Position numbers and translations under genes: made by a program
Virus record (IMG/VR): IMGVR_UViG_3300030109_000489
Coordinates: 1-26,133 of that record
Length of the DNA: 26,133 bases
Reading direction: 5' to 3' (one strand)
DNA from: a virus
In this document: positions 1 to 21,030 of the stretch, piece after piece
How positions within the stretch are numbered: the first letter of the stretch is position 1
Layout of the letters: every line of letters starts with the position of its first letter
Notes under the pieces: model-generated
What the model saw: only the letters and a program-made list of their open reading frames with translations
What the model was told of the DNA's origin: nothing
The model's database searches: none

Positions 1-3000
1 ACATCTTCAACAGCAAATGATTTATTTTTACCGCCTACTCTAATATTAACAATACCCGCACCTGAAGTGTTAGCCGGTACTTGTCTTGCAAATCCAGCAT
101 CTACCATATCTCTTACAACACGGTTAGCGGCAACATTCTTCATACCTAATGTTACGGCTGCTCTTAAATTTTCACCTATACCTGTAATTGGATCAACTAT
201 ATCTTTATCTTCACTACCTTTAGCTTTTACAAAAATATTTTTACTTAAACTAAGTCCTTTAAAAATTTTTGGTCCCTTTAAATACTGTGTTCCGTCTTCA
301 TCAACTCCTATCATTCTATAGAATGGAAAATAATCAGAATTAGCTGTCCATTGTTGAGCAGTATTTTCATCTAAAACACCTGTATCAACTAAAAACTTAA
401 CTACGTGTTGATCATACCTATCGTAAGCATCAGACATAGCTTGTAATTCAGGATAATCTTTTAAAGCTTGAGCGGCATCTTTTCTGTCTTGTGCTGTAGT
501 TTTTACCGGTTTTCCCTCTGCATTAAAACGTGTTTCACGTTTAGCTATACGCACAGCTTGAAAAGCCCACATTAATTGAGGATTTTCAAAAGCTGGTGCT
601 AAAAATTCCATAGGAGGTGCAACCGGTTTACCGTCTATAGGTGATATAGTTTCTACACGAATATAACCCTTTTCATCATATACAAATATGCCTTCCATAA
701 AACCAGCTCTGAAAACTTCTCCGGCTCTGTCTGACATCATAAGGGCACTTACAGCAGAAACATCCGCAGTAAGCATTTCTTCTTTTTCTCCTCTGGCTCT
801 AGCTGCCGACATTTCAACAGTTTTAAATCTTGCGTATCTATCTACAAGTTGTTCTCTGATAGAGTCTTCTGTCGCATAACCTTTTGCTGTTTGTAAAATT
901 ATGCTACCCATACTAGGTGCATCATCAAACGTGTCTCTTATGGTTACTTTTTGTACTAATTTTTCTGTTTTATCGTCTAATTTTTTACCGGAGTTTTTAA
1001 ACGAGTATTTAGGGTTTAATCTATCTCTTGGTATAAAGGCTAGGGGTTCTTTTAATTCTTGTATGTAAGCCGTTCTAATGGCTTCAGGAGAGGCATTTAA
1101 ATTGAATTTAGGAGTAAGGTTTGCTCTTACAAGTCTTTCGTTGATGCCTTTAGCACCTTCGATAGCTTCTTGTAGGTTTACTACTTCTGAGGAAACAGCT
1201 TCTGGTTCATTAATTTGGCTGCTTTCTCGGAGTATTCGTCTGACTTGAGATTCTCTTCCTCCGAAAAGAGAGGTAGGGAGAATCCCAGAGTCTTGTCTGA
1301 TGATTTGTTGATTTTTTCCGCCATTGTTATCTATCCATGCAAAACCGTCTGTTACATATTTTACCCTATGAAACGTATCAATAGGAGTGTTTTTTGTTTC
1401 TTCTAAATATATAGGAGGTACTAACCTTCCAGTCTTAGCAAAACGTTCATACATTCTGCCTAATGCCACTCTGTAATCAACATCTACTAAAACAGTTTTT
1501 ACGTTATATCCATTCTCCTGTAATTCTTGTATTGTATTTTGTATTTTTTTCCTTTTAGAAAATCCTCCTACTCTGGGTAAGAGTATGTTTTTACCTTCCT
1601 TTAAAAACTCTTGTATTACATTGTCTGTTAACATTGAAGCTTCAGTATGAGTAGCATTAGCACCTATTCCTCCGTCATACTCTGGAATTATTGCTTTTGC
1701 ATCATCACTATCAGCTATGGCTAAATCATAATTTTTTGCTATTTCTTCTGCAAAGAAAGATTTACCAGACGCAGGTGGTCCCAATATTATGTAAGCTTGT
1801 CGACCATTAGGTATTGGATTTCTACTGTAACTTTCAGCTTTTTCTTTTAATACTTGTGTAGCTTTACGTACTCCTCTTATTTTTTTGCCATTTACTATAA
1901 ACTCTCTTTTATTCAAATAGTTATTATTTAAATACCACCTTTCGCCATATTGAGTTAAATACTTGTCTACTGTTGTTTGTAACTCAGACATTCTATTCAT
2001 ACCCTCTAAAGATGCCGGATGCTCGGAGAGTTCTAATATGTTAGTTCCCGCATTTAAAAGTTCTAATAAATCTTTTTTAGCATTTGCAAACGCTATATTA
2101 TCTAAAGGTGCAGACAACTTGAGTTTTTTTCCTAATGTTCTTTGCTCTAAATCCGCTTGTCCTTCCATATAGATAGGCTCGTTGTATCTACGCAAGTTAT
2201 CTTTTATTTGTTTACCTCTGCTACCTTTAGGAGTTAAAAACTCCATAGCAGACATTTTGTATTTAGGCTTTAAGGGACCTAAATTAACTGTTCTTCTTTT
2301 TATAGGTTGAGGAGGTGTTTCGGCTTGATACGATATATCTTGTTTAGGTGCTACAGCTAAAGCGTTTGTTCCTACTAATAGATAATCAGTAGAGGTAAGA
2401 GAAGGCTGTGCAAAAACAGGCGGTTGAAATCCAAACATAACATCTTTATCTAACATTACCTTTTCTTTTTCTATGGTGTATTCTGTAATTTGTTTGTTGT
2501 CACCAAAAATTTCAAAAGGTGTATCTACAAATTCATTAGCTATTTTGACAGCTTCTTCTAAATTATTAGTAACTACTGTAGATGTCCCTTTCGCTCTATC
2601 TCCTACTACATACACCGGAAATGTATCAGGATAATTTTTTTTCTTTAATGTGTTTTGGGTCATTTGAAACAGTTGTGATTGTGTTTCACCTATTTCATAA
2701 TTATCGACTGACCTTCCTAATCTTCTAATAACGTTACTATTGTTTATTATTTCTCTTGCAAATATATTCTGACTTATTTGATTTATATCATTTCCGTATT
2801 CTTCATTTCTGGCACCTAATATAAACTCTTGAGTTAAAGTTGTAGGTCTTTGTTGTACATTTGCTATTTTGTATTTTAAATTAGGAGCGTCCTGAAGGGG
2901 TCTCTTGAAGTCGGGAGATGCTCTATCAGCAGCATCAGGAAAGTATTCATTACCTATACTTGTTTCAGTAATTCTTAGAAGATCAGCAAACTCACTAGCC

Positions 3001-6000
3001 AATATTCTATTTGTTCTTACAACAGGTGTTTGTACTTCGTAATTTCTAGTAGGTGTTCCAAATTCGTCTACACCAATTACCTCAACAGATTGTTTGGTAT
3101 CACCATACCTCTCTCTGATTCCTATCTCTCCACCTATAAGCTTATCAAAAACATCTTCGTAAGTACGATAGCCTAATTCGTTCAAACCATTATTTATACT
3201 GGTAAAAAACTTTTTAGTTCTTTCCATTAAACTTCGAGGGTTACCAGATATTTTTTTGTTTTCTATGTAATCTTCAAACAATAAAGCATTAGCCTCTTCT
3301 AATAAATCTACAGAATTTAAGTTTTGATTATCTAAAGTATTGTACCTATACTCTACAGCTTCAAGATATGTAGGCATTCTGCCTAACTCTTCTTTTAAAA
3401 TATTTAACTGTTCTTTACCTAATACTTCTGTTGCTGTTTTATTATTTAATTCATTATTCCTAACATAGTTATCTAAATTTGCTCTTTCTTGTGGAGAAAA
3501 TAAATCTAAAAATACAGCAGCATGAAACAACTCATGTCCCATAGTCTTAGAAAGATTATCTAAAACTTCTTGTTCTGTTGTAGTGCCTTCTTTTGCTTTA
3601 GCAACACTCAAAAATACTTCTGACCAAACAGGATCAAATTGCCCTTCTGCATCAGGATTAGCTTGTCCTACTCTAGTTTGTATAGCTTTATCTAATCTTA
3701 CAGATACTTCAGGTAAATTCATCTTTTCAAAAGATGCACCTAATAAGTTACGAAACTTTTGTATATCTTTAAGTTCTTGTTTAACTTCGGGGTCGTTCTG
3801 TATTTTAGATTGCTCTACACTATTAAGTGTCCACTCACCATTAGCATTAAATTTATATTTACTGCCTTTTTGATCAACTATACCAGCAGAAACAAGGTCT
3901 TGACGTAACCTAGTAGCTACACGTTTGTCTGCTAAGTTATTAGGATTTAATCCTAAAGCTGTGACTATATTAGGTATGGTGGGTGCAGAGCCTGTATTTA
4001 AAACTTCTACAACTTGATTGTATTCGTTTAATGTATAAGGACGGGGTGAAAAGTCAGGTAAAGTAATAGTATTACTTTCATGTGCGGGTAAGGTGCTTAA
4101 AAAAGAATAAACTAATCTTTTTTGTTGACCATTAAGTTTATTGAAATTTGGTTGACCTGTTAAACGTAATGACAAAGATTTAAATCCATTTGATTTAGTA
4201 TCTATGTTTACATTTAATTTTTTGCCAAGATTTTCTAACATCTTGACTGTTACGTTAGTAGGAAGGTTTTTAGTGAATCCGGCTTCTTCGTAAAGTCTTT
4301 TTGCTTTTACATCTAATAATCTATTAATATCAGCATCAGGCAATACACCTTGCAAAGATAATACATCTATTCCGGTAGTATCTCTGCCTACAGCATTAAT
4401 TAATCTTTCATAAGCAGCAGAATTTACATTAGGAGATGCTTCAACATCTCTTATATCAACTTGTCCAAAATAAGGATTTAATACAGCATTACCTAACTTG
4501 TTTACAAAAGGATTTGTTTCAGAGTCTGCATTAAGACCCTGCATGGTAGCAAAATTACTTTTTAGTTCATTTGAGTAATTAGCCCCACTTATTAAATTTA
4601 AAACTCCTGACACTCCTACAGCTTCTTCTTGTGTGTTAAAAGTGTTTCCTATTACTTCTTGATAAGTATCTGTAATTGCAAAGCTGCCTTGTCCGTCAGG
4701 TTGCACAAAAAACTGATTAGGTGCTACAACATCACTATCTGTATCAGCAAATGTATTTATTTTTCCTTGATTTTCTTGGTAGGTCTTAAAAGCTTCATTA
4801 AAGAAAGGTATACCTGTATCGTAAATTTTATTGCCGTCTGCAATTTGCACTTCACCTGCTAATTCTCCTAATCCTACTTGTTTCGCTTGTTCTTTAATAA
4901 CTTGTATTTCTTCGGTGGTGCGTTTAAAGTTTTCTTCTTTAGCAGCCGTCATACCTTTTACTTCTTGGTTAGCACTTATACCTCCTAAAATAGCATCAGC
5001 AGGAACAAACACAGCTTCACCTAATGTTTCTGCAAGAACCTCACCGTAAGATATTCTTTCACCGTCTTCTAAAGTAGCTAACTGTGCAAAATATTCAGCA
5101 CCACCCGGCAATCCCATCTGCAAAGGTGTTTGTGCTGCTATATTATAACTTTGCCTTACATAAGGATTTACGGCAGTACCAGTAGGACCCTTAACAAAAG
5201 GTAAAACTGAACGATTAGCACTTGTTATAACAGACGGTGCAATAATTCTAGTTGCTATACCACCAGTTATACCATCAATAGTACCAATTATTGCTCCTCT
5301 TTTAAGACCAAAATCATGTGCTTCTTCTATTAACTTGTCATTAGACATAATAGTTTTTATAGATTCAGGATTAGTCATATCTAATCCTTGTGAACGTAAG
5401 TATTCATGCACAGAATGACTGTATTCTATAGAACCTGACATACTACCGGTGCCTGTTACTTGTCCAGCAATTTGTGGTATTGCACCAAATGTTCTTAAAG
5501 CAGCACCTATACCTAAACTTGTTCCTGCAATTAACGCTGAAGCTGAACCAGAACGACCAACTACATCACCTAAAAAGTCTAATTTTTGACTTAAATCTAA
5601 ATCATTAAAAAATGCACCTAATGCTCTAGGATTTTCACCGTGACCCTCTTGCATAACCCACTTAAAAGCGTCACTAAGTTCTACTTCATTTATAGATTTT
5701 TGTAATGTATCAAAAGTATTTAAAGTATCTTTATTAAACTGTATAAGTCCTTTTTCTGCTTTTTCATCAGTTTCGTACATTTGTGCAGAAATAGGCTGCC
5801 CCGGAAACATCTCTTGAATCTGTCCGGATTTTCCCGTCCCATACAGCATAATATGCAAGTCTTGTTTTCTTTTTACTTCATCAGGACTAAGAGTTTGATT
5901 TTTTTCTTTGTCTAAAAGTGTGTTGTATTCATTATTAACTTGTTCTTCTTCTAATAAAGACTCATATACTTTCTGTTTATCTATATTAGTTAAAGCTTCT

Positions 6001-6278
6001 TGTTCAAAACCAGCTACAAATTGTTGACCTATTGAATCACCTTCGCTACGTGCTTCTTCAGGACGTAATTTAGGTGCAATAGATGCGTAAGGATTTTCTA
6101 TAGTAAGAGGGGGTTCTTCTGTGGTTTCTGTTACAACAGGTGTGGTCGCTACAGTTTCTTCTTCAACTGTAGGAGGTATGAATTTTGTTTCAAAACTTTG
6201 TATTCGTTCTTGTATTTCTTCTTCAGTTAAATCATCTGGCAAAGATAAAAACGATCCGTCAGACAGCAAATAGTCCAT
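1..6278 (-). CDS. giant phage polyvalent protein, 3' end outside window (zincin + zeta-like kinase)
   Basis: The minus-strand frame opened by the ATG at 6278-6276 stays open to the window edge, giving at least 2,092 residues. GTAGG about 8 nt upstream is a plausible RBS, and the start lies 1 nt after the previous stop. Visible parts: an acidic, Pro-rich N-terminus (1-100); Gly/Ala-rich hydrophobic stretches near 235-280 and 325-352; a zinc-protease motif HELFH at 915-919; and a Walker A loop GPPASGKS at 1500-1507. The latter is followed by ADSDDAKAIIPEYDGGIG, strongly like zeta-toxin/polynucleotide-kinase-type domains. The stretch from about 1840 to the edge resembles domains associated with large polyvalent phage proteins. 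Such proteins are thought to be packaged and injected with DNA to counter host functions. That role is inferred here from architecture and from its place beside virion genes. Confidence 0.85.
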   Translation of the reverse strand, partial: MDYLLSDGSFLSLPDDLTEEEIQERIQSFETKFIPPTVEEETVATTPVVTETTEEPPLTIENPYASIAPKLRPEEARSEGDSIGQQFVAGFEQEALTNIDKQKVYESLLEEEQVNNEYNTLLDKEKNQTLSPDEVKRKQDLHIMLYGTGKSGQIQEMFPGQPISAQMYETDEKAEKGLIQFNKDTLNTFDTLQKSINEVELSDAFKWVMQEGHGENPRALGAFFNDLDLSQKLDFLGDVVGRSGSASALIAGTSLGIGAALRTFGAIPQIAGQVTGTGSMSGSIEYSHSVHEYLRSQGLDMTNPESIKTIMSNDKLIEEAHDFGLKRGAIIGTIDGITGGIATRIIAPSVITSANRSVLPFVKGPTGTAVNPYVRQSYNIAAQTPLQMGLPGGAEYFAQLATLEDGERISYGEVLAETLGEAVFVPADAILGGISANQEVKGMTAAKEENFKRTTEEIQVIKEQAKQVGLGELAGEVQIADGNKIYDTGIPFFNEAFKTYQENQGKINTFADTDSDVVAPNQFFVQPDGQGSFAITDTYQEVIGNTFNTQEEAVGVSGVLNLISGANYSNELKSNFATMQGLNADSETNPFVNKLGNAVLNPYFGQVDIRDVEASPNVNSAAYERLINAVGRDTTGIDVLSLQGVLPDADINRLLDVKAKRLYEEAGFTKNLPTNVTVKMLENLGKKLNVNIDTKSNGFKSLSLRLTGQPNFNKLNGQQKRLVYSFLSTLPAHESNTITLPDFSPRPYTLNEYNQVVEVLNTGSAPTIPNIVTALGLNPNNLADKRVATRLRQDLVSAGIVDQKGSKYKFNANGEWTLNSVEQSKIQNDPEVKQELKDIQKFRNLLGASFEKMNLPEVSVRLDKAIQTRVGQANPDAEGQFDPVWSEVFLSVAKAKEGTTTEQEVLDNLSKTMGHELFHAAVFLDLFSPQERANLDNYVRNNELNNKTATEVLGKEQLNILKEELGRMPTYLEAVEYRYNTLDNQNLNSVDLLEEANALLFEDYIENKKISGNPRSLMERTKKFFTSINNGLNELGYRTYEDVFDKLIGGEIGIRERYGDTKQSVEVIGVDEFGTPTRNYEVQTPVVRTNRILASEFADLLRITETSIGNEYFPDAADRASPDFKRPLQDAPNLKYKIANVQQRPTTLTQEFILGARNEEYGNDINQISQNIFAREIINNSNVIRRLGRSVDNYEIGETQSQLFQMTQNTLKKKNYPDTFPVYVVGDRAKGTSTVVTNNLEEAVKIANEFVDTPFEIFGDNKQITEYTIEKEKVMLDKDVMFGFQPPVFAQPSLTSTDYLLVGTNALAVAPKQDISYQAETPPQPIKRRTVNLGPLKPKYKMSAMEFLTPKGSRGKQIKDNLRRYNEPIYMEGQADLEQRTLGKKLKLSAPLDNIAFANAKKDLLELLNAGTNILELSEHPASLEGMNRMSELQTTVDKYLTQYGERWYLNNNYLNKREFIVNGKKIRGVRKATQVLKEKAESYSRNPIPNGRQAYIILGPPASGKSFFAEEIAKNYDLAIADSDDAKAIIPEYDGGIGANATHTEASMLTDNVIQEFLKEGKNILLPRVGGFSKRKKIQNTIQELQENGYNVKTVLVDVDYRVALGRMYERFAKTGRLVPPIYLEETKNTPIDTFHRVKYVTDGFAWIDNNGGKNQQIIRQDSGILPTSLFGGRESQVRRILRESSQINEPEAVSSEVVNLQEAIEGAKGINERLVRANLTPKFNLNASPEAIRTAYIQELKEPLAFIPRDRLNPKYSFKNSGKKLDDKTEKLVQKVTIRDTFDDAPSMGSIILQTAKGYATEDSIREQLVDRYARFKTVEMSAARARGEKEEMLTADVSAVSALMMSDRAGEVFRAGFMEGIFVYDEKGYIRVETISPIDGKPVAPPMEFLAPAFENPQLMWAFQAVRIAKRETRFNAEGKPVKTTAQDRKDAAQALKDYPELQAMSDAYDRYDQHVVKFLVDTGVLDENTAQQWTANSDYFPFYRMIGVDEDGTQYLKGPKIFKGLSLSKNIFVKAKGSEDKDIVDPITGIGENLRAAVTLGMKNVAANRVVRDMVDAGFARQVPANTSGAGIVNIRVGGKNKSFAVED

Positions 6279-12585: not shown

Positions 12586-14447
12586 TATTTTTTACCGTCC
12601 TGTCTCATTTCTAATCTAAATGAACCTAATCTCCATCCATAACCTAAACCAGAACTTTGAAACCTTAATATTGCTTGTCTTGTTCTTGCTCTTATAAAAG
12701 CTTGTTGTGTTGTAGAATTTATAGAACTTGTAGATAAAGTTGTAGGGGTATCAAGCGGATAATCTACACCTTTTACTAAAACGTCTAATGTATCATCAGT
12801 TCCTGTTTGTCCTTTAAAAGTTAAATCCGGAATAATTTTAGAAACAAACATATAGTGTTCACCGTCTGGCTCTAAATCAAAATCAGAAGTTTCTACAAAA
12901 GCATTCATAATAGAACCATCAGCATCATTTCCTACCTCATGGTTATACAAATAATTATTATTAGTAGTGTCGTTTTTGCTTGCTGCAACTGGGAAATCTA
13001 AAGAATTTGCTTCTATCCAAGCTGTTCTAGTAAAACCATCATCGGTTGTGCCTATACTCCAAGTATTTTCTAAATAATTAAAAATTACATATCTGTTTAA
13101 TTCACTTGAATCCGCAGATGGGTAAAACCACATAATTTCATTTTGATCTACATTTGACGTACCAAAAATTTTAAAAGACTGACCTAAATTAATATCAGAA
13201 AATATATAGTCTCTTACTGCACACGGTAAAGTTTGAACACTACCTGCATAAATATAAAAACTTCCCCTATCCATAAAAAACACTTTGTTATCAGCATTTA
13301 TAGCTGCATTCGGTGAAATCATGGAGGGACCTTGCATAATTTCAGAAAATGTAAATATAAAAGGAGCACCACTATATTGCATAGAATGCAATCCATTGTC
13401 TGTCCAAATTAAAATTTCTTGTCTAGTTCTTAGGGCACCAATTATAGTTGATCCACTTGATAATCTAGTGCCTCCGGCTGTATTAGTAGAAGTTGGTGTC
13501 CAATCTATTGAACTTTCTTGATCAGACCATCTGACAAATAATGGATCAGAAGTTGTAGAACCTATTGGATTAGCACCAAAACAAATTATATGTCTATCAA
13601 TATCAGAAACCATTATTTGTAATACTGCTGTTGGTGGATTACTAGCTCCTGATAAATCAGAAAATGACACAGCACGAGTAGATGTGCCTCCACTTTCGTC
13701 CCATAAAAATATTCCGCCACCTCTTACACAAGTTATAAGATCATCACCAAAATTATCTTGCGACCATAATCTTAATTGATTGACTGAATCAATAGCACTT
13801 GTTGATCCCCAACCTCCTGCACCCCAAGTATCTATACCCCATCCTGTTCCTTTTACAAAAGTATCTAGTCCTACATTTATTTCATAAGAACCATCTACAC
13901 CAGAACCTCCATTACCTGTGTCGCTAGAGTTTGCAGTAACTGTAGTTCCTGAAGTATCTTTAGCAGTTATTTCATAAGTATTAGCAGTCAGAACTTTATC
14001 TATTATGTATTCTTGATTTAAAACAGCAGCAGTTACGTTACCACCTAAAGAAACAGCTTGGGCAAAAGTTACAGTATCTCCTGTTACTGCTCCATGTGAT
14101 GAATCTGTTACTACGACTGTTGATGAACCATCAGTTGCAGCAAAAGTTATAGAATTAGTTGATGTTTTTCTTATAGGTGTAATATTGTTAAAAGTAGTTC
14201 CTTCTTTAACATATAGTTTTGTATGCGTTCCTACACCTATGTAATCTGTTTGCCCTTGATCTCTATATGAATGCAAACTTCTACAAGTACCTAAAAAACT
14301 ACTACTTGATGTTTTTTCCCATCCACCTATTTTTTCAGGTCTACCGCTTCTAAATCTTACTTTATCAGCATTAAAATAGCCTCCTTCTTCAGAATAAGAA
14401 GTACCTTCTCTATTTATGCCGGGACGAAAAACATATTTTTTTAACAT
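12585..14447 (-). CDS. phage tail/stabilization-type protein (beta-rich, 620 aa)
   Basis: 620 residues, beta-rich throughout. The N-terminus carries RPGINREGTSYSEEGGYF followed by an Arg-rich KVRFRSGRPEKIGGWEK segment. I associate this signature with podovirus proteins annotated as packaged-DNA stabilization or tail-nozzle proteins. It is rich in Ser, Thr, Asn and Gly with aromatic-Gly turns, which suits a propeller-like fold. It forms a TAATG junction with the upstream lysozyme stop, coupling a virion gene directly to the lysis cassette. Identification is by N-terminal signature and context. The nozzle versus stabilization label should be regarded as provisional. Confidence 0.7.
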   Translation of the reverse strand: MLKKYVFRPGINREGTSYSEEGGYFNADKVRFRSGRPEKIGGWEKTSSSSFLGTCRSLHSYRDQGQTDYIGVGTHTKLYVKEGTTFNNITPIRKTSTNSITFAATDGSSTVVVTDSSHGAVTGDTVTFAQAVSLGGNVTAAVLNQEYIIDKVLTANTYEITAKDTSGTTVTANSSDTGNGGSGVDGSYEINVGLDTFVKGTGWGIDTWGAGGWGSTSAIDSVNQLRLWSQDNFGDDLITCVRGGGIFLWDESGGTSTRAVSFSDLSGASNPPTAVLQIMVSDIDRHIICFGANPIGSTTSDPLFVRWSDQESSIDWTPTSTNTAGGTRLSSGSTIIGALRTRQEILIWTDNGLHSMQYSGAPFIFTFSEIMQGPSMISPNAAINADNKVFFMDRGSFYIYAGSVQTLPCAVRDYIFSDINLGQSFKIFGTSNVDQNEIMWFYPSADSSELNRYVIFNYLENTWSIGTTDDGFTRTAWIEANSLDFPVAASKNDTTNNNYLYNHEVGNDADGSIMNAFVETSDFDLEPDGEHYMFVSKIIPDLTFKGQTGTDDTLDVLVKGVDYPLDTPTTLSTSSINSTTQQAFIRARTRQAILRFQSSGLGYGWRLGSFRLEMRQDGKK

Positions 14448-14887
14448 TATTCTTCTAAAACTCTATCTCTTAATCTTACTGCTCTAGCACCTACTTGATT
14501 AGCCCATTTACTATCCATCATTTCTTCTGATGCTGTTTCAAAGTCTCCTGCTTTCATAGCTGCTAAAAATTTTTTAAAGTTTTTTAATCTAGGTAATCCT
14601 AAATTAAATGCCATATTAGCCATAACTCTTTGCTTGTTATCATCTAAATCTTTCCACCAAGGCAAATTTTTATCTAATTCTTTACACACAATATCTATAT
14701 CAGCGTTCAAACATTCATATATTCTTTCTTCTGATATAGGAGTTCCCATAGGCAAACCCCACTCTTTATCTTTTTCTGTCAATAAATGTCCTACACCCAA
14801 AGTAGGATAACCTAAATGATCTCTATATATTTCATACATAAAGCCTTCATCCATTATTATTTCTTTTACTAATTTATCTCTATCCAT
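14447..14887 (-). CDS. endolysin, GH24 (T4-type) lysozyme
   Basis: 146 residues, a complete single-domain muramidase. The catalytic triad spacing of T4 lysozyme (Glu, +9 Asp, +6 Thr) is present as E14, D23 and T29, followed by LGVGHLL. It should cleave the MurNAc-GlcNAc bond of peptidoglycan. There is no signal peptide or transmembrane anchor, so export depends on a holin, which is encoded immediately upstream. The leader between holin and lysozyme (14888-14954) can fold so that a purine-rich stretch before the ATG is partly paired. AAGG, 11 nt from the ATG, is the likely, slightly distant RBS. Confidence 0.95.
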   Translation of the reverse strand: MDRDKLVKEIIMDEGFMYEIYRDHLGYPTLGVGHLLTEKDKEWGLPMGTPISEERIYECLNADIDIVCKELDKNLPWWKDLDDNKQRVMANMAFNLGLPRLKNFKKFLAAMKAGDFETASEEMMDSKWANQVGARAVRLRDRVLEE

Positions 14888-14902: not shown

Positions 14903-14950
14903 CCCCTATCAAAACAGAACAGGAGCAGACTTGCTCTAAATTAATAGGGG
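14903..14950 (-). promoter_or_regulatory. two-tier RNA hairpin in the holin-lysozyme leader
   Basis: In the minus-strand RNA, CCCCUAUUAA (14950-14941) can pair with UUGAUAGGGG (14912-14903), 10 bp including one U-G wobble. Inside it a second perfect hairpin forms: GAGCA, loop AGUC, UGCUC (14936-14923). The outer stem holds the AGGGG immediately before the AAGG that precedes the lysozyme ATG at 14887. No U-run directly follows the stem, so it looks less like a terminator than a translational control element. Its existence is read from the sequence; its function is inference. Confidence 0.55.
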
Positions 14951-14954
14951 TCGG

Positions 14955-15425
14955 CTAATCTTGTTTCTGTGATGCACCGAAATAAAAACTTATAACAGCA
15001 CTAGCCAAACCACCTAAATAACCTAAAACTAAATTAATTAACGCTTCGCTATTTTGTTCTGGTGGTTGTAAGGTTACTAAAAATATATATGCTAAAAAAC
15101 CACCTACTGTAGCTATACCCATAATTCTAGCTGTCCAATCTTTACCAAATTTACCTCTAGCATCTTGTTTATCAGCAGTTTCTAGTTTAAATACATCTAC
15201 TTCTAATTCTTTCATCTGAACCTCAAAAGCTTGTTCTGCTTTTTTTAATTCTAACATTTGCTCCGGAGATGCCGACTCAATAGCTTTTTCTATAGACTTA
15301 GAATCATTTTTACATCCTAAAACTTCAGAAATCATATTGGCAGCCATACCGCCCATAGGTCCACCTAATGCAGTACCTAAAGTTGGTGCTACTGCACCTA
15401 CAACACTTTTTAACAAATCTTTCAT
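14955..15425 (-). CDS. holin, 3-TM gene-transfer-agent type
   Basis: 156 residues from the ATG at 15425, preceded by GGGAG at 5-nt spacing. An in-frame ATG at 15437 lacks a good RBS. An N-terminal Gly-rich APTLGTALGGPMGGMAANMI segment is followed by a charged helix (SPEQMLELKKAEQAFEVQ), then ...TARIMGIATVGGF... and a second hydrophobic segment at about 128-150. This arrangement matches the 3TM holin family described for gene-transfer-agent release. It lies directly upstream of the lysozyme and starts 3 nt after the cyclase stop, so lysis is translationally linked to the signalling module. The role in permeabilising the inner membrane is inferred from family and position. Confidence 0.75.
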   Translation of the reverse strand: MKDLLKSVVGAVAPTLGTALGGPMGGMAANMISEVLGCKNDSKSIEKAIESASPEQMLELKKAEQAFEVQMKELEVDVFKLETADKQDARGKFGKDWTARIMGIATVGGFLAYIFLVTLQPPEQNSEALINLVLGYLGGLASAVISFYFGASQKQD

Positions 15426-15427
15426 TT

Positions 15428-17197
15428 CTACTCCCATGTATAAACTTGTAAGGGTTTTGCTTTACCTTTAACCTCTATAGGGTCTAATAATTTCATAGCA
15501 AATTTACTATGTTTTGCAGTTTCCTCACCTATTAAAACACCAACACCCGCAACTTTTGTACTAGATTCTAATCTAGCAGCAACATTGCAAGGGTCACCAA
15601 TTAAACTAAATGCAAACCTGTCTGTAGCACCAAAATTTCCTGCTATACAAACTCCACTATTAACACCTATGCCTATAGCTACTTCAGGTATACCTTCTTC
15701 TTTAAACTTTAAGTTAAGCTTATCTATATTACTTTCTATTTCTTTAGCGGCTTGTAATGCTAAATTATGATGATCATCTTGTGGAATTATAGTATTCCAA
15801 TGAAACATACCTGCATCGCCTATAAATTTATCTGTGCATCCAAAATATTTATTAGCTGCTTCTACTTGTGCATCTAATACTGCATTCATAATATACGTAA
15901 CCATTTCTGGTTCTACTGACTCTGATAAGCTAGTAAATCCTCTAAGGTCTGTAAATATAATAGAACAATCTACTCTTTTACCATTTACCTGACAAAGTTC
16001 AGGATTATCTTGCAATTTTTTGACCATTCTTGGATCAAGATATTTACCAAACTGTCCTTTAATTTGTTGCCTTAATTTGTATTGTTCTCTAAATCTAAGA
16101 TAGAAAGCAGTTGAGGCACTTATAAACTGAGATAACAAAGACCAAGTAACATCTATTAATAAACCATTTTGTATTAAATAGTAACCACTTAAAGCAGTTC
16201 CCATTATTACTAAGCTAGAAGCAGATATTCCGAAAGTAATTCCTAGAACATTAATCAAACTTATAACTAAACAAAGTGATATAAATGTAAACAATAATTC
16301 TACTAACAAAGAATAATCAGGAATATAAGGACTATTTTCTATTAATATAGATTCTGCTAAAGCTGCTTGTATTTTATGAGGTTCTAAAAGTTTATTATTA
16401 GGAACTGCAATTTGTGGCATTATTCCTTTTGCTGTAAATCCTACAAAAACAAATTTATTTTCTACATCCATTTCAGCAAGATTGGTTTGTGGTGTATCAA
16501 CCCAACTTATCCATTTTCTACCAAGGCTATCTACCTTAACAGGAGGCAAGCCCCTAACTCTTATTTCTTCTATACCATTATCATTAGTTTTAATAACATA
16601 GGTATCTGCACCAGCTAATACCTTTAAAACTTCAGTTCCGTAAGATGCTACCCAACCGTCATTAGTTCTCATTAATAACGGCAGTCTTCTCACTAAATTA
16701 TCAACTTCTGTTCTTGCTACTGCTAAACCTTGACTTGAATTTTGTTTTAAAACTTTTATATTTTGTATAACGCCTTGAGCCTTAATACCACCTATATCAT
16801 TTCCTAATATGACTGTGCCTGTTGTAGGTGGATATTCTCCTTTTCCCTCAAACATTGCTAATACACTAGGAGAAAAAGACAACGCTTCTGAAAATTCAAA
16901 GTCACCTCCAAATCTATCAGGCTGTGGAAAAGCTATAACCCATCCAACTCCTATAGCACCTTTACGTAAAAGATTTATTTGTATTTGTGCTAGTGTTTGT
17001 CTTGATAAAGGATAACCTCCTTCTCTAGCTATATCTTCTTCTGTGATATTTAAAATCGTAAAATAATCTGAAGGTTCTTGTTGTGTAACAAAAGCATCAA
17101 AAGTTTTTAATTTTAATATTTGATAAGCTGAAGGTTGAAAAATATATACGCTACATAAAGCAAAAATTAATAATAAATAAATATTAAGATTTTTCAT
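15428..17197 (-). CDS. CHASE2-domain class III adenylate cyclase
   Basis: 589 residues with an N-terminal membrane segment (5-22). A periplasmic CHASE2 domain follows (about 30-285), including GYPLSRQTLAQIQINLLRKG and the FVGFTAKG motif. Three membrane segments (about 294-365) lead to a linker with FGKYLDPRMVKKL and a class III cyclase domain (about 405-589). Catalytic residues are intact: metal Asp D417 (FTDLRGF) and D461 (IGDA), adenine-specifying K457 and D535 (IGDPCN), and transition-state N538 and R542. This predicts ATP to cAMP rather than cGMP. The start overlaps the FecR gene stop (ATGA) with AGGG upstream, and the stop is followed at once by the holin. A sensor cyclase in a phage lysis region is very unusual. 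Confidence 0.97.
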   Translation of the reverse strand: MKNLNIYLLLIFALCSVYIFQPSAYQILKLKTFDAFVTQQEPSDYFTILNITEEDIAREGGYPLSRQTLAQIQINLLRKGAIGVGWVIAFPQPDRFGGDFEFSEALSFSPSVLAMFEGKGEYPPTTGTVILGNDIGGIKAQGVIQNIKVLKQNSSQGLAVARTEVDNLVRRLPLLMRTNDGWVASYGTEVLKVLAGADTYVIKTNDNGIEEIRVRGLPPVKVDSLGRKWISWVDTPQTNLAEMDVENKFVFVGFTAKGIMPQIAVPNNKLLEPHKIQAALAESILIENSPYIPDYSLLVELLFTFISLCLVISLINVLGITFGISASSLVIMGTALSGYYLIQNGLLIDVTWSLLSQFISASTAFYLRFREQYKLRQQIKGQFGKYLDPRMVKKLQDNPELCQVNGKRVDCSIIFTDLRGFTSLSESVEPEMVTYIMNAVLDAQVEAANKYFGCTDKFIGDAGMFHWNTIIPQDDHHNLALQAAKEIESNIDKLNLKFKEEGIPEVAIGIGVNSGVCIAGNFGATDRFAFSLIGDPCNVAARLESSTKVAGVGVLIGEETAKHSKFAMKLLDPIEVKGKAKPLQVYTWE

Positions 17198-18309
17198 CCT
17201 GAACCCTGTTTAACATTTATTGTTGTACTAGAGCCACCGTTAACTTTTATGGTATTAGCAACACCGTCTTGCATTAAGTAAATAGTATAGGCATCAGAAC
17301 CATCTACATTTAGCTTTACACTTTGACTTACAGATCGTGTGAAAGTTATATTTCTGCCAGAAACTATTGTTGTGATCTGTGTATCTTTATCCTGTCCTAT
17401 CTCTGTTCCAACTATACGAATACCTACACCACCTTGTTTTAGAGCATCTTCTTCTTTTGATATAGCTAGTGCGTCTATGACATTTAATAAGTCCTCTAAG
17501 AAATTAGTAGCCAACATATCTATGTCTAGTTCAGTAAATTCTAGTTCTTCTTCTGCATCTAAAAAATCTTCTGCTAGATAATCAATATCCAGATCATCAA
17601 ACTCTAAATAATCTGCTGTAGTTTGTGTTTGTGTTTCTTCTTGTTGTTCTTTTATTTCTTCTGGTGGATTTACGATAAGTAAATTATCTATAAATTCTAA
17701 AGATATATCTAAGGTTATAGGTTTAGTAGGATTACTTTCGTAAACAGATACAGTTGTAGCTTGATAAGGTTTATTTAAAGTTACACTACCTAAACCTGTT
17801 GATACTATTATTTCACCGCTAGATATACCGTTTTCATCTGGTAATAAAATTACAAGACTTCTACCTAACTCATCTACTGTACAGGTAAAATCCGTCCCAC
17901 GAATTGCAATTTGGGCTGTTGGTGTACGTATAGATATATTGCTCTTGTTGTTAAATTTACCTGTTATAAAACGTGCTGTACCACTAGCAAACTTTAATGC
18001 CATCTTTGATTTTGATGGATCAGGATCGTAAATGTACTCGTCTATAACAAGTTTAGAATGTTCTGTAAGTTTTACCGTAGAAGCATCTTCAAAAGTTATT
18101 GCCACTCTGCCCGTTTCTGTACGGACATCATCCATTTGTTGTATGTTGAACTCTAATTCAGCATCATACGGCACATCTCTGAGAACTTGTGCATTTCCTC
18201 TGAGTTCTGATACTAAACCTATGTTAGCAGACGAATGAAGTAGTTGCGTCTGACTGAGTAACACAGACAGTACCACTAGAGCCCGCAGATGTAATTTTAA
18301 GCCAGTCAT
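17194..18309 (-). CDS. FecR-domain periplasmic protein with curlin-like C-terminus
   Basis: 371 residues. A signal peptide covers about 1-28 (basic n-region, hydrophobic core, cleavage near HSSA/N). The FecR domain (about 30-190) shows GLVSELRGNAQVLRD, DDVRTETGRVAITFEDAST, and the hallmark ISIRTPTAQIAIRGTDF. A Gln/Glu-rich linker leads to an acidic tandem repeat: LEFDDLDIDYLAEDFLD (235-251) and LEFTELDIDMLATNFLE (256-272), period 21. The last part, IYLMQDGVANTIKVNGG then INVKQGSG, resembles curlin repeats. FecR-domain proteins are often encoded next to CHASE2 cyclases in bacteria, as here (4-nt overlap). Its first 28 codons overlap the upstream curlin-like gene. Likely a periplasmic partner or ligand-sensing protein for the cyclase. 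Confidence 0.88.
   Translation of the reverse strand: MTGLKLHLRALVVLSVLLSQTQLLHSSANIGLVSELRGNAQVLRDVPYDAELEFNIQQMDDVRTETGRVAITFEDASTVKLTEHSKLVIDEYIYDPDPSKSKMALKFASGTARFITGKFNNKSNISIRTPTAQIAIRGTDFTCTVDELGRSLVILLPDENGISSGEIIVSTGLGSVTLNKPYQATTVSVYESNPTKPITLDISLEFIDNLLIVNPPEEIKEQQEETQTQTTADYLEFDDLDIDYLAEDFLDAEEELEFTELDIDMLATNFLEDLLNVIDALAISKEEDALKQGGVGIRIVGTEIGQDKDTQITTIVSGRNITFTRSVSQSVKLNVDGSDAYTIYLMQDGVANTIKVNGGSSTTINVKQGSG
17494..17607 (-). repeat. acidic tandem repeat within FecR-like protein
   Basis: Two copies of a 17-residue acidic motif (L-E-F-x-x-L-D-I-D-x-L-A-x-x-F-L) at a 21-residue period, residues 235-272 of the FecR-domain protein. It reads as an internal duplication and may form amphipathic helices or bind cations. 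Role unknown. Confidence 0.7.
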
Positions 18310-18967
18310 TATCAGATGTTGACTCCTGATCTATATTAAAAGTCCTACTACCTCCGACATGAGTTAGATGAAAATATCCACCTGCATATCCATCACCATC
18401 ATAAGTTACCGTATTATCGTTACCGTCTATGTTCATATAATTAGTAGCACCATCTACATCTATAGATGCAGTTATACTGTTGCTACCACCTTGTATAGTC
18501 CAATCTAAGTCTAGGTTAGCTGCTAGTGCTGTCATAGCGTGATTGAGTGTCATTGTGTTCGTATTACCAGTGACTTGTACGTTTACGTTAGAACCATCGG
18601 CACCTGTAGCATTTGTTTCGTCTGTACTCATATTAAACGTATTTGTGTCGCCTATAAAAGAAAAGTAACCCGTATAGTTGTCTGCCCATATATCGCCTAA
18701 GAATTTATTCGTGTTACCTTTTTGTAAGACATCCAATGTCATAGTTCCGCCATCTAAATCTAAAGCGGTCATAGAACCTGCTGCTGCATCAGAACCACCA
18801 ATAATGTTACCACTACCGCCTACTTGTTCTATATCTAAATTAGACGTTGCTCCTGATTGATCTATAAATATTTCATTATCAGCCCCGTATAGTGTTGATA
18901 CACTCATCATCACAACTAGGTTCATTAATGTCAGTATTTTTATTTTGTTTCCAATAGCCTTTTTCAT
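18224..18967 (-). CDS. curlin-repeat (CsgA/B-like) secreted protein
   Basis: 247 residues. A signal peptide spans 1-29 (MKKAIGNKIKILTLMNLVVM..., cleavage likely YGA/DNE). The rest is a run of roughly eight degenerate repeats of the curlin type, I-x-Q-x-G-x-x-N-x-x-x-I, for example IFIDQSGATSNLDIEQVGG, VLQKGNTNKF, VTGNTNTMTL and IQGGSNSITASI. It is rich in Asn, Thr, Gly and Asp, as expected of an extracellular beta-solenoid amyloid. It ends with two Cys (C235, C247), unusual for curlins. A strong SD (AGAGGAGGG) precedes the start, the best in the module, suggesting high expression. csgG and csgF lie directly upstream, so CsgG is the probable export pore. CsgA-like versus CsgB-like cannot be decided. 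Confidence 0.75.
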   Translation of the reverse strand: MKKAIGNKIKILTLMNLVVMMSVSTLYGADNEIFIDQSGATSNLDIEQVGGSGNIIGGSDAAAGSMTALDLDGGTMTLDVLQKGNTNKFLGDIWADNYTGYFSFIGDTNTFNMSTDETNATGADGSNVNVQVTGNTNTMTLNHAMTALAANLDLDWTIQGGSNSITASIDVDGATNYMNIDGNDNTVTYDGDGYAGGYFHLTHVGGSRTFNIDQESTSDNDWLKITSAGSSGTVCVTQSDATTSFVC

Positions 18968-19736
18968 AGCCCTCCTCTATTGTTTGTAAAACTGCTTTCT
19001 CTACTGCCATTTGTAAAGCTATATTTATTGATTCATTTTCTACTATACCGCTTTCTATTTCAACTAACTCGGTATTATTTGCATAAAATCTAAACACATC
19101 TGAAGATACAGATGCACTTAATATTGTTTTAGTAACTAATACTTCTATTAATATTTTACCTGTTAAAACAGATACAGTTCGTAAAGATATAGTTACAGAA
19201 TCTTGTCTATATTCTTTAGAGCCACCTATACCTAAATATCTAGCACCAGCACCACCTGATTTAATATTTGTTTCGTAACCTACAACACCACCTTCCATTA
19301 ATAAACCAGCAAACATTAAAGGTTTTACCTTTTGTTTTTCTTCAAAGTTTTCTCTAGTTGTACGTATTATCTGACGTTCTTTTGTAAGATTATCTAAACC
19401 GGTGCGTTCTACAACATCAAAAACACCAGAATGTTGTAATGCTCTTATAAGATAAGCATCGGGTGCTTGAGTTATTGCGGTACTAAAACTAGCATATTGA
19501 CTATTACTTCTTCGCTGTCCGGTATCATCTTTAAAAGAACTTGGATATACAGCTACTACAGGTTTTCGTATAGGAAGAGGCACCTCTGCTAAATCAGTTA
19601 ATAAAGAACTAACTTCGGCTGATTCTATATGTCTTATAGGTGGTATTCCGTTATCTAATGGATCAACAATCAACGCACAACTAGAAAGTAAAAGAACCAA
19701 GAGGTACAGTAATTTCTGTTGTATTGCCTTCTTCAT
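18879..19736 (-). CDS. csgG: CsgG family outer-membrane curli secretion lipoprotein
   Basis: 285 residues (E. coli CsgG has 277). A lipoprotein signal peptide ends in the lipobox LSSC with acylated Cys C20. Family signatures run in order: KPVVAVYPSSFKDDTGQRRS (58-77), FSTAITQAPDAYLIRAL (84-100), ERTGLDNLTKERQIIR (110-125), GGAGARYLGIGGSKEYRQD (161-179), LTGKILIEVLVTKTILS (191-207), and the C-terminal NESINIALQMAVEKAV...GYW. It should form the nonameric outer-membrane channel that exports curlins. The start has no SD, and its first 19 codons overlap csgF, so translation is probably coupled. The residues matching the E. coli constriction differ (S79, S83, F84 opposite Y51, N55, F56, ungapped alignment). 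Confidence 0.97.
   Translation of the reverse strand: MKKAIQQKLLYLLVLLLSSCALIVDPLDNGIPPIRHIESAEVSSLLTDLAEVPLPIRKPVVAVYPSSFKDDTGQRRSNSQYASFSTAITQAPDAYLIRALQHSGVFDVVERTGLDNLTKERQIIRTTRENFEEKQKVKPLMFAGLLMEGGVVGYETNIKSGGAGARYLGIGGSKEYRQDSVTISLRTVSVLTGKILIEVLVTKTILSASVSSDVFRFYANNTELVEIESGIVENESINIALQMAVEKAVLQTIEEGYEKGYWKQNKNTDINEPSCDDECINTIRG
18970..18978 (-). promoter_or_regulatory. strong Shine-Dalgarno of the curlin-like gene
   Basis: AGAGGAGGG, 2 nt before the ATG at 18967, with the GAGG core about 6 nt away. It lies inside the 3' end of csgG, where coding constraints would otherwise act. The csgG, csgF and fecR-like starts lack a well-placed SD, so this gene is probably translated most. It also decides the start at 18967 over the internal Met codons. 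Confidence 0.7.
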
Positions 19737-20148
19737 CTGTAATTATTAATGTTACTTTATCGTCTTCTACTCTATATTCTATTGTATTGCCTTCTAATTC
19801 AAGAACACCAAAATCTGACGCAGTTTCTCCAAATAAACTATCTACCAACTGCCTTGATAACTGTGCATAAATACGACTTTCTAAATTACGAATAAATCTA
19901 GCTAAAGTTGTGTTGTCAGCCTCTCTTTCTAAATCTTCTACATAGGCTTTGATTTCTTCACGAATAGCTTCTTTTCTATTAAATTCTTGATTTTCTATAG
20001 TCAGGTAGTGACTAGATGTGCCAACACCAGAAAAACTTGGGTTTTTAAATTTATGGGTCATTTCATCTGCTTGCACAGATAAAACTACAAACATAAAAAT
20101 TATCATGGAAGCTATCAGCAACACTTCATCAGGACGTTTAGAAGGCAT
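19681..20148 (-). CDS. csgF: CsgF-like curli assembly protein
   Basis: 155 residues from the ATG at 20148. The signal peptide (about 1-27, ...VVLSVQA/DE) is followed by MTHKFKNPSFSGVGTSSHYL, matching the conserved mature CsgF start (F-x-N-P-x-F-x-G, then a Gln/Asn-containing segment) that inserts into the CsgG channel in E. coli. A charged helical middle follows, and the C-terminus (VTLIITDEEGNTTEITVPLG) matches the CsgF beta tail. Longer in-frame starts up to 20271 exist, but they would put the signal peptide deep inside and overlap the 65-residue upstream gene. The 20148 start follows that gene's stop by 5 nt. Expected to work with the adjacent CsgG in anchoring or nucleating exported curlin at the surface. 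Confidence 0.88.
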   Translation of the reverse strand: MPSKRPDEVLLIASMIIFMFVVLSVQADEMTHKFKNPSFSGVGTSSHYLTIENQEFNRKEAIREEIKAYVEDLEREADNTTLARFIRNLESRIYAQLSRQLVDSLFGETASDFGVLELEGNTIEYRVEDDKVTLIITDEEGNTTEITVPLGSFTF

Positions 20149-20153
20149 AATTT

Positions 20154-20351
20154 TTATAGATAAGTAATTACTAAATCTACACTTTTTACTGTATCTATCC
20201 AATAAAATGTTATATAGCCTAGCCAACTGAATGCAATTAAAAAGCAACATACTACTGTGTATCTTTTCCAATTTGCTAGTAATAAATCTATTGAGATATC
20301 AATAAAATTAAATACCTTTTGTCTTTTAGATAGTTTCTTTTTTCTTGGCAT
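20154..20351 (-). CDS. small single-span membrane protein (65 aa)
   Basis: 65 residues with a very basic N-terminus (MPRKKKLSKRQK) and a hydrophobic segment around 33-52 containing Trp, Cys and Tyr. A perfect AAGGAG lies about 5 nt upstream of the ATG, so it is well translated. It ends 5 nt before csgF. The topology is probably N-in by the positive-inside rule. It is not CsgE by length or sequence. It could be a small lysis, regulatory or export helper; I do not recognise a family. Confidence 0.65.
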   Translation of the reverse strand: MPRKKKLSKRQKVFNFIDISIDLLLANWKRYTVVCCFLIAFSWLGYITFYWIDTVKSVDLVITYL

Positions 20352-20360
20352 AGCTGCTCC

Positions 20361-20699
20361 TTAATTAAATGCCCAAACAAAAACTGCTAATAATCCAATC
20401 AAAGATAACAAAATAAATGCAATAGAAGTTATTTCTATAGTCTTACCTAATTTATTTAGATATATTGTATCTCGTTCAGGATTAAACCTTTCGTCCTCAT
20501 AAATATACTTATCACGCGGAAAAGGTCTTTTGGGTATAGGTTCAAATATTACGTTGTCTATTGAGACTAACTGTTCTTCTTCTATTCTTTTTACTTCTGC
20601 CTCTTGGTACTCCGTCCATTTTTTACCGTACTTTTCATACATAATATTATTAAAGTCAGCGTCTAAAAATGCTTGATCTTCAGTCTTTTCTTTGGTCAT
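20361..20699 (-). CDS. C-terminally anchored small membrane protein (112 aa)
   Basis: 112 residues: a long charged, Glu/Lys/Tyr-rich soluble part (1-88, with FEPIPKRPFPRDKYIYEDER in the middle) and a single C-terminal membrane segment (about 91-111, ending AVFVWAFN). The tail-anchor design puts the bulk of the protein in the cytoplasm. AAGG lies 9 nt before the start. It overlaps the 3' end of the upstream membrane gene by 20 nt and stops 9 nt before the next start. No family is recognised; the neighbourhood is a run of three small membrane proteins before the curli genes. Confidence 0.6.
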   Translation of the reverse strand: MTKEKTEDQAFLDADFNNIMYEKYGKKWTEYQEAEVKRIEEEQLVSIDNVIFEPIPKRPFPRDKYIYEDERFNPERDTIYLNKLGKTIEITSIAFILLSLIGLLAVFVWAFN

Positions 20700-21030
20700 C
20701 TCTATCTGCCTTTGCTATTTTATTACTGTCTATTAACTGTGGTACACCAAGTATTGTTTTTATAAGTGTGTCTTGTCTAATAATTTCATTGTCTAAACTT
20801 CTTATGCGATCTATAAGAGCTACTAAGATGCCGTGTTGTGAATCTAATTTAGTTCCAAGTCTATCTTCCATTTGAGATATTTGATCGGCTACTTTATCAT
20901 CTAGCACATCTAGTTTAGTTTCCATGCCGTCTATTATTCTATTTATAAGCTTCCAAATAAAAATACCTAGTCCTAGAGCAGCAGCTATTGGAAACCCAAC
21001 TTCTGCTATAAATAAAGTAATATCTTCCAT
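20680..21030 (-). CDS. small membrane protein with TM plus coiled coil (116 aa)
   Basis: 116 residues. One N-terminal membrane segment (about 5-33, ITLFIAEVGFPIAAALGLGI) is followed by an amphipathic coiled-coil region (about 36-90, heptad Leu/Ile with METKLDVLDDKVADQIS) and a charged tail. The layout resembles small phage holin-like or hemolysin-XhlA-like proteins, but no signature is decisive. Its start forms a TAATG junction with the SNase stop, so translation is coupled. A possible second holin or lysis regulator, at low certainty. Confidence 0.6.
   Translation of the reverse strand: MEDITLFIAEVGFPIAAALGLGIFIWKLINRIIDGMETKLDVLDDKVADQISQMEDRLGTKLDSQHGILVALIDRIRSLDNEIIRQDTLIKTILGVPQLIDSNKIAKADRDDQRKD

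Follow-up and report, generated by a model that had tools for sequence, protein, structure and literature searches.

Results

Curli genes joined to a FecR-CHASE2 pair

The DNA studied here, called the window below, is the whole of the 26,133-base IMG/VR virus record IMGVR_UViG_3300030109_000489 (GC 35%). An initial annotation, made from the sequence alone, had pointed to a run of minus-strand genes for curlin export, envelope sensing and lysis. In the order of transcription, this strand carries three small open reading frames (ORFs) with one transmembrane (TM) segment each, then csgF, csgG, a curlin-like gene, fecR, a CHASE2 adenylate cyclase gene, a holin-like gene and a lysozyme gene. The five genes from csgF to the cyclase gene are the module of concern here (lengths in amino acids, aa; dN/dS, ratio of nonsynonymous to synonymous substitution rates, given as the median):

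19681..20148 (-): csgF, 155 aa; ATG at 20148, TTG-extended ORF to 20271; Pfam CsgF E=1e-17; phrog_35372 E=2e-43; dN/dS 0.066
18879..19736 (-): csgG, outer-membrane lipoprotein pore, 285 aa; lipobox LSSC; Pfam CsgG E=6e-51; E. coli CsgG 3x2r E=4e-46; dN/dS 0.076
18224..18967 (-): curlin-like repeat protein, 247 aa; signal peptide; family-profile match; dN/dS 0.069
17194..18309 (-): FecR-domain protein, 371 aa; signal peptide, acidic linker, C-terminal curlin-type repeat; Pfam FecR E=5e-13; dN/dS 0.063
15428..17197 (-): CHASE2 receptor with a class III adenylate cyclase as its output domain, 589 aa; Pfam CHASE2 E=1e-22, Guanylate_cyc E=4e-15; CyaB 3r5g E=1e-24; dN/dS 0.091

Pfam and PHROG searches found every gene named in the initial annotation on the minus strand and in the place given for it, the name of the holin being tentative. 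CsgG, CsgF, FecR, CHASE2, the cyclase and the lysozyme passed the Pfam cut-offs, and the end coordinate that had been assigned to the run, 20148, is the ATG of csgF. All five module genes are under strong purifying selection, and because their median dN/dS values lie at 0.06-0.09 none of them is a chance ORF. The genes had also been described as one overlapping run. Each gene from csgF through the holin-like gene does overlap its neighbour; the lysozyme gene stands apart, separated by 67 nt that hold a strong hairpin.

Pfam Curlin_rpt did not match the window's own curlin-like protein and matched 4/17 members of its family. The family profile matched a curlin-repeat protein of known structure (PDB 8c50, E=2e-6), and the AlphaFold2 model of the window's protein was all-beta, with a predicted local distance difference test score (pLDDT) of 82. 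The FecR protein ends, as the initial annotation had it, in a curlin-like repeat: a single repeat, QDGVANTIKVNGGSSTTINVKQ, is found at its C-terminus and is kept across the phage family. An acidic motif in two copies (DDLDIDYLAEDFL / TELDIDMLATNFL), at about residues 232-280 of FecR, is among the most conserved parts of the phage copies.

A periplasmic FecR domain with partners in the outer and inner membranes recalls FecA-FecR-FecI iron-citrate signalling. Regulation of that type was rejected, because the phage FecR has a signal peptide rather than an anti-sigma membrane anchor and no sigma factor FecI or TonB receptor FecA was found among the window proteins scanned.

All of the residues of a class III cyclase are present in the window protein, namely the metal-binding Asp residues D417 and D461, the adenine-binding K457 and D535, and the catalytic or transition-state N538 and R542. 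In Melnitz-type cyclases (L003, L154) a Ser replaces the catalytic Asn, and these enzymes may be impaired. Pycsar defence was considered for the cyclase and rejected, since the matches were to generic cyclase domains rather than of the PycC type and no effector was seen among the scanned proteins.

The module in other phages

Two scans of IMG/VR confirmed at least 560 and at least 573 relatives. The samples used for linkage are the window's closest relatives rather than a survey of all phages. Among viral csgG loci with at least 5 kb of downstream sequence (n=32), the curlin gene was present in 32/32, fecR in 32/32 and the cyclase gene in 31/32. The predicted linkage of curli genes to the FecR-cyclase pair thus held: instead of unlinked curli and FecR-cyclase genes, or a pair that never co-occurs, we found one conserved module. 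In cultured phages the same genes recur. HTVC008M, which infects SAR11, and four Melnitz phages, which infect OM43, have the order csgF-csgG-curlin-fecR-[another gene]-cyclase, the intervening gene in Melnitz being a second curlin-repeat gene.

The initial annotation took the coupling of curli genes to a sensor cyclase to be new. It is not, because Wittmers et al. (2022) described a CsgF-CsgG-CsgA/B-FecR-adenylate cyclase cluster in nine pelagiphage podophage genomes and in myophages, and HTVC008M and Melnitz carry the same coupling. Those authors regarded FecR and the adenylate cyclase as new components with a possible regulatory role, and detected transcripts as well as a worldwide distribution (PMC9599517). 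The window shares with this type VIII secretion module the order csgF-csgG-curlin-fecR-adenylate cyclase, preceded by one or two small ORFs. It differs in having no second curlin gene between fecR and the cyclase gene, and the upstream 'histidine kinase' of the published module is unsupported as a kinase (see below).

The window's virion protein shows identities of 31-34% to HTVC023P-type phages and 39% to DSL-LC04, a phage of Gammaproteobacteria. SAR11 is a likely candidate for the host lineage of this marine phage. Sibling capture has been proposed for phage curli genes (Zaragoza-Solas 2020).

Several module-bearing phage contigs (L151-L155, L157, L165, L270) had been binned into bacterial metagenome-assembled genomes (MAGs) of Maricaulis, Neomarinimicrobiota, Flavobacteriaceae, Rhodobacteraceae and Pelagibacter, and are therefore a source of false 'bacterial' curli genes. 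The 1499-base phage record OR851715.1, labelled 'Salmonella phage', encodes CsgG and is probably no phage genome.

FecR-CHASE2 pairs and curli genes in cells

Cellular counterparts of the pair were sought in 58 alphaproteobacterial CHASE2-cyclase loci, each of about 13 kb or less and picked from the best-scoring matches. A FecR-domain gene lay beside CHASE2 in 28/58 loci, compared with about 0.5 expected by chance, a figure derived from the 46 FecR domains that Pfam detects per about 72 Mb in 19 of these genomes. The FecR ORFs ranged from 231 to 1724 aa, some of them truncated where the examined sequence ends; several of these partners are giant cadherin/Ig/RTX surface proteins. Near 17/28 of the FecR-CHASE2 loci there is a TolC-like, HlyD-like or TPR-barrel gene, a raw count, uncorrected for background, in which the barrel label denotes weak similarity.

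Pairs of this kind have been met in experimental work. The biofilm (BiofilmReg) operon of Burkholderia encodes a FecR-CHASE2 pair with a kinase output, and biofilm was lost when the regulator gene was interrupted (PMC5192318). In Sinorhizobium, the gene for the FecR protein SMc02177 lies close to that for the CHASE2 protein CyaD1, and the outer-membrane barrel NsrA is required for the signal (PMC5498481, PMC13001267). Like these, the window has a FecR-domain gene adjoining a CHASE2 receptor gene, so that an extracytoplasmic FecR protein is encoded beside or near a membrane receptor, and there is a link to biofilm or the cell surface. The phage pair differs in that its output is a cyclase, whereas that of Burkholderia is a kinase, in lacking LysM, and in having curli as the partner export system.

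A further set of cellular pairs came from 148 genomes in the GTDB family to which a MAG named Candidatus Pelagibacter belongs, with at least 70% completeness requested. CHASE2 was found in 19/148 genomes of this SAR11 family, and two of the 19 are phage contigs with the curli module (L270, L271). In the other 17, CHASE2 is always fused to a SpoIIE phosphatase, with FecR no more than 4.5 kb away in 15/17; one of the two loci without FecR stops at a contig edge. The FecR-CHASE2 pairing thus holds through a change of output, since in this family the pair feeds SpoIIE. These loci (L234, L235, L255-L269), in which the conserved FecR gene is usually accompanied by a TPR-barrel-like gene as well, appear to constitute an undescribed host envelope-signalling locus.

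The FecR-CHASE2 coupling proposed in the initial annotation therefore looks well founded, the two genes appearing as neighbours throughout Alphaproteobacteria whatever the output domain. Among the open-access papers searched, we found none that joins the phage, SAR11, Burkholderia and Sinorhizobium cases. Judged by gene neighbourhood, FecR-CHASE2 is an old bacterial receptor pair with interchangeable outputs, and this linking of the cases is new here.

The possibility that the phages had recently captured CHASE2 from the SAR11 CHASE2-SpoIIE gene was rejected, because in a quick tree the phage CHASE2 domains formed one supported clade (SH-aLRT 100), separate from the SAR11 and other alphaproteobacterial copies.

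Alphaproteobacterial curli (type VIII secretion) operons resemble the phage module in having CsgF, CsgG and curlin-repeat subunits together (L181, L183); the phage module adds FecR and CHASE2. Neither FecR nor CHASE2 occurred within about 10 kb of cellular alphaproteobacterial csgF in five loci. This small sample is in line with a phage module that joined two cellular units.

Lysis genes and other neighbours

Downstream of the module, and outside its conserved part, lie:

14955..15437 (-): holin-like protein (tentative); phrog_1544 E=2e-26 ('unknown function'); two C-terminal hydrophobic segments
14903..14960 (-): RNA hairpin between the holin-like gene and lysozyme; -27.9 kcal/mol, z=-3.9; terminator-like match
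14447..14887 (-): lysozyme/endolysin; Pfam Phage_lysozyme E=3e-13; phrog_7 endolysin

The name holin is tentative because PHROG 1544 is of 'unknown function' and the holin match was sub-threshold (E=0.08). The transcript could end or be processed at the hairpin. A holin or lysozyme gene lies within 3 kb downstream of the module in 26/39 unique close relatives, and upstream in 2/21; in L151, fecR is followed directly by a holin-like gene. In the cultured myophages HTVC008M and Melnitz, the annotation shows no lysis gene next to the module. Fusion to the lysis cassette, which had been claimed as part of the system, thus depends on the phage backbone and fails as a general rule, and lysis timing, one of the outputs that had been suggested, is unsupported for the same reason.

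Upstream of csgF are the three small ORFs:

20680..21030 (-): small one-TM coiled-coil protein, 116 aa; weak holin-like PHROG matches; dN/dS 0.046
20361..20699 (-): small protein of 112 aa with one TM segment (TM scan); optional, lies ahead of csgF in some relatives
20154..20351 (-): small protein of 65 aa with one TM segment (TM scan); optional, lies ahead of csgF in some relatives

Most relatives carry members of the 20680-21030 family (70-116 aa, one N-terminal TM segment and a coiled coil) upstream of csgF, frequently two of them. Judged by its position and copy number, this family probably corresponds to the gene or genes labelled 'histidine kinase' by Wittmers et al. A kinase assignment found no support in Pfam, with no kinase domain in any of 20 members. 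Elsewhere in the window, positions 3-6278 encode a protein of at least 2092 aa with a zeta-toxin-like kinase domain at residues 1494-1641.

Discussion

The reading that we favour, by a modest balance of probability, is that the phage carries a mobile curli module joined to a FecR-CHASE2 envelope receptor with an adenylate cyclase output, which would provide export-coupled cAMP signalling and surface remodelling. CsgG and CsgF would export the curlin-like protein to the surface of the infected cell. Gene linkage suggests that FecR and CHASE2 would work together across the envelope as a single unit, in the manner of the cellular pair, which has genes for other outer-membrane export or barrel proteins next to it and varies in its output. 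The FecR protein, with its curlin repeat, would couple the state of export or of fibre assembly to CHASE2, and the cyclase would convert the CHASE2 signal into cAMP. The benefit may be that a remodelled surface blocks superinfection or holds sister cells nearby.

Several observations weigh against export-coupled signalling. The structure model of FecR (pLDDT 47) was too poor for use, and Foldseek gave no significant fold match with the model of the curlin-like protein. Loci L127 and L151 keep csgF-csgG-curlin-fecR and are missing the cyclase gene. Clumping was absent in Melnitz cultures (PMC9004378). The FecR gene of Sinorhizobium is itself a target of cAMP and is dispensable for signal perception, so that FecR could be an output rather than an input. 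The cAMP would also be without a known receiver, because the likely hosts mostly lack cyclic nucleotide monophosphate (cNMP)-binding proteins and none is encoded in six phage records, four of them possibly partial. A cNMP-binding domain was found in 11/148 SAR11-family genomes, few of the proteins being CRP-sized, and 137 genomes had none. An effect of cAMP on host metabolism, as the initial annotation suggested, is thus unsupported and awkward. Nor does the family seem to make cAMP itself: a class III cyclase scored above the cut-off in 2/148 genomes, both of them the phage contigs, and a class I cyclase in 0/148. Some of these absences may be genome gaps, though hardly so many. With no cyclase of their own and mostly no known cAMP receptor, the usual explanation through CRP is unlikely in this family.

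The main rival account makes FecR a component of the fibre or a product under cAMP control. FecR would then be a minor fibre subunit or anchor, like CsgB, exported with curlin, while CHASE2 senses something else and cAMP controls expression of the module. The signal peptide and C-terminal curlin repeat of FecR suit such a role, as do the giant surface proteins that are often the FecR partners in cells, the behaviour of the Sinorhizobium gene, and the persistence of FecR where the cyclase is missing. However, the survival of the FecR-CHASE2 pairing through swaps of the cytoplasmic output is better fitted by a shared receptor, and the six phage records hold no cNMP-binding regulator. We regard this rival as possible and as clearly the less probable account. 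Lysis timing and nutrient uptake rank below it. A lysis role was proposed for the Melnitz module (Buchholz 2022, PMC9004378); CsgG-CsgF would be a gated pore aiding lysis in the manner of a pinholin, with the cyclase as timer, and the lysis genes close downstream in many relatives would suit it. But the module lies away from lysis genes in HTVC008M and Melnitz, a bare pore has no need of the curlin subunit that all 32 loci encode, and the window's lysozyme gene is set apart by the hairpin, so we consider a lysis pore improbable. Still more doubtful is the import of nutrients or cofactors for the infected cell through the CsgG pore, with FecR pointing to iron, which was suggested by Zaragoza-Solas (2020) and by Wittmers et al. 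(2022; PMC9599517). The phage FecR is found outside a FecI/FecA context and has no membrane anchor of the kind seen in the iron regulators, FecR domains are common on adhesin-like proteins, and curlin is always present.

If FecR and CHASE2 do form an export-coupled receptor, a more specific and tentative proposal is that the phage installs a foreign second-messenger circuit, in which FecR-CHASE2 reports curli export as cAMP in SAR11, a host group that lacks its own cAMP cyclase and, for the most part, a cAMP-binding protein, and in which some genomes have FecR-CHASE2-SpoIIE. Were this true, the cAMP would act on a target of a new kind, or the phage receptor would disturb the CHASE2 pathway of the host itself.

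Ever since their report in 2020, the curli genes of ocean phages have been hard to explain. The present analysis turns a vague idea, in which FecR senses iron and the cyclase acts via CsgD or CRP, into a testable one, in which FecR and CHASE2 would be one receptor with interchangeable outputs, often encoded beside outer-membrane export genes. For CHASE2, a sensory domain that is widespread and has no general ligand known, the analysis points to FecR as a candidate partner.

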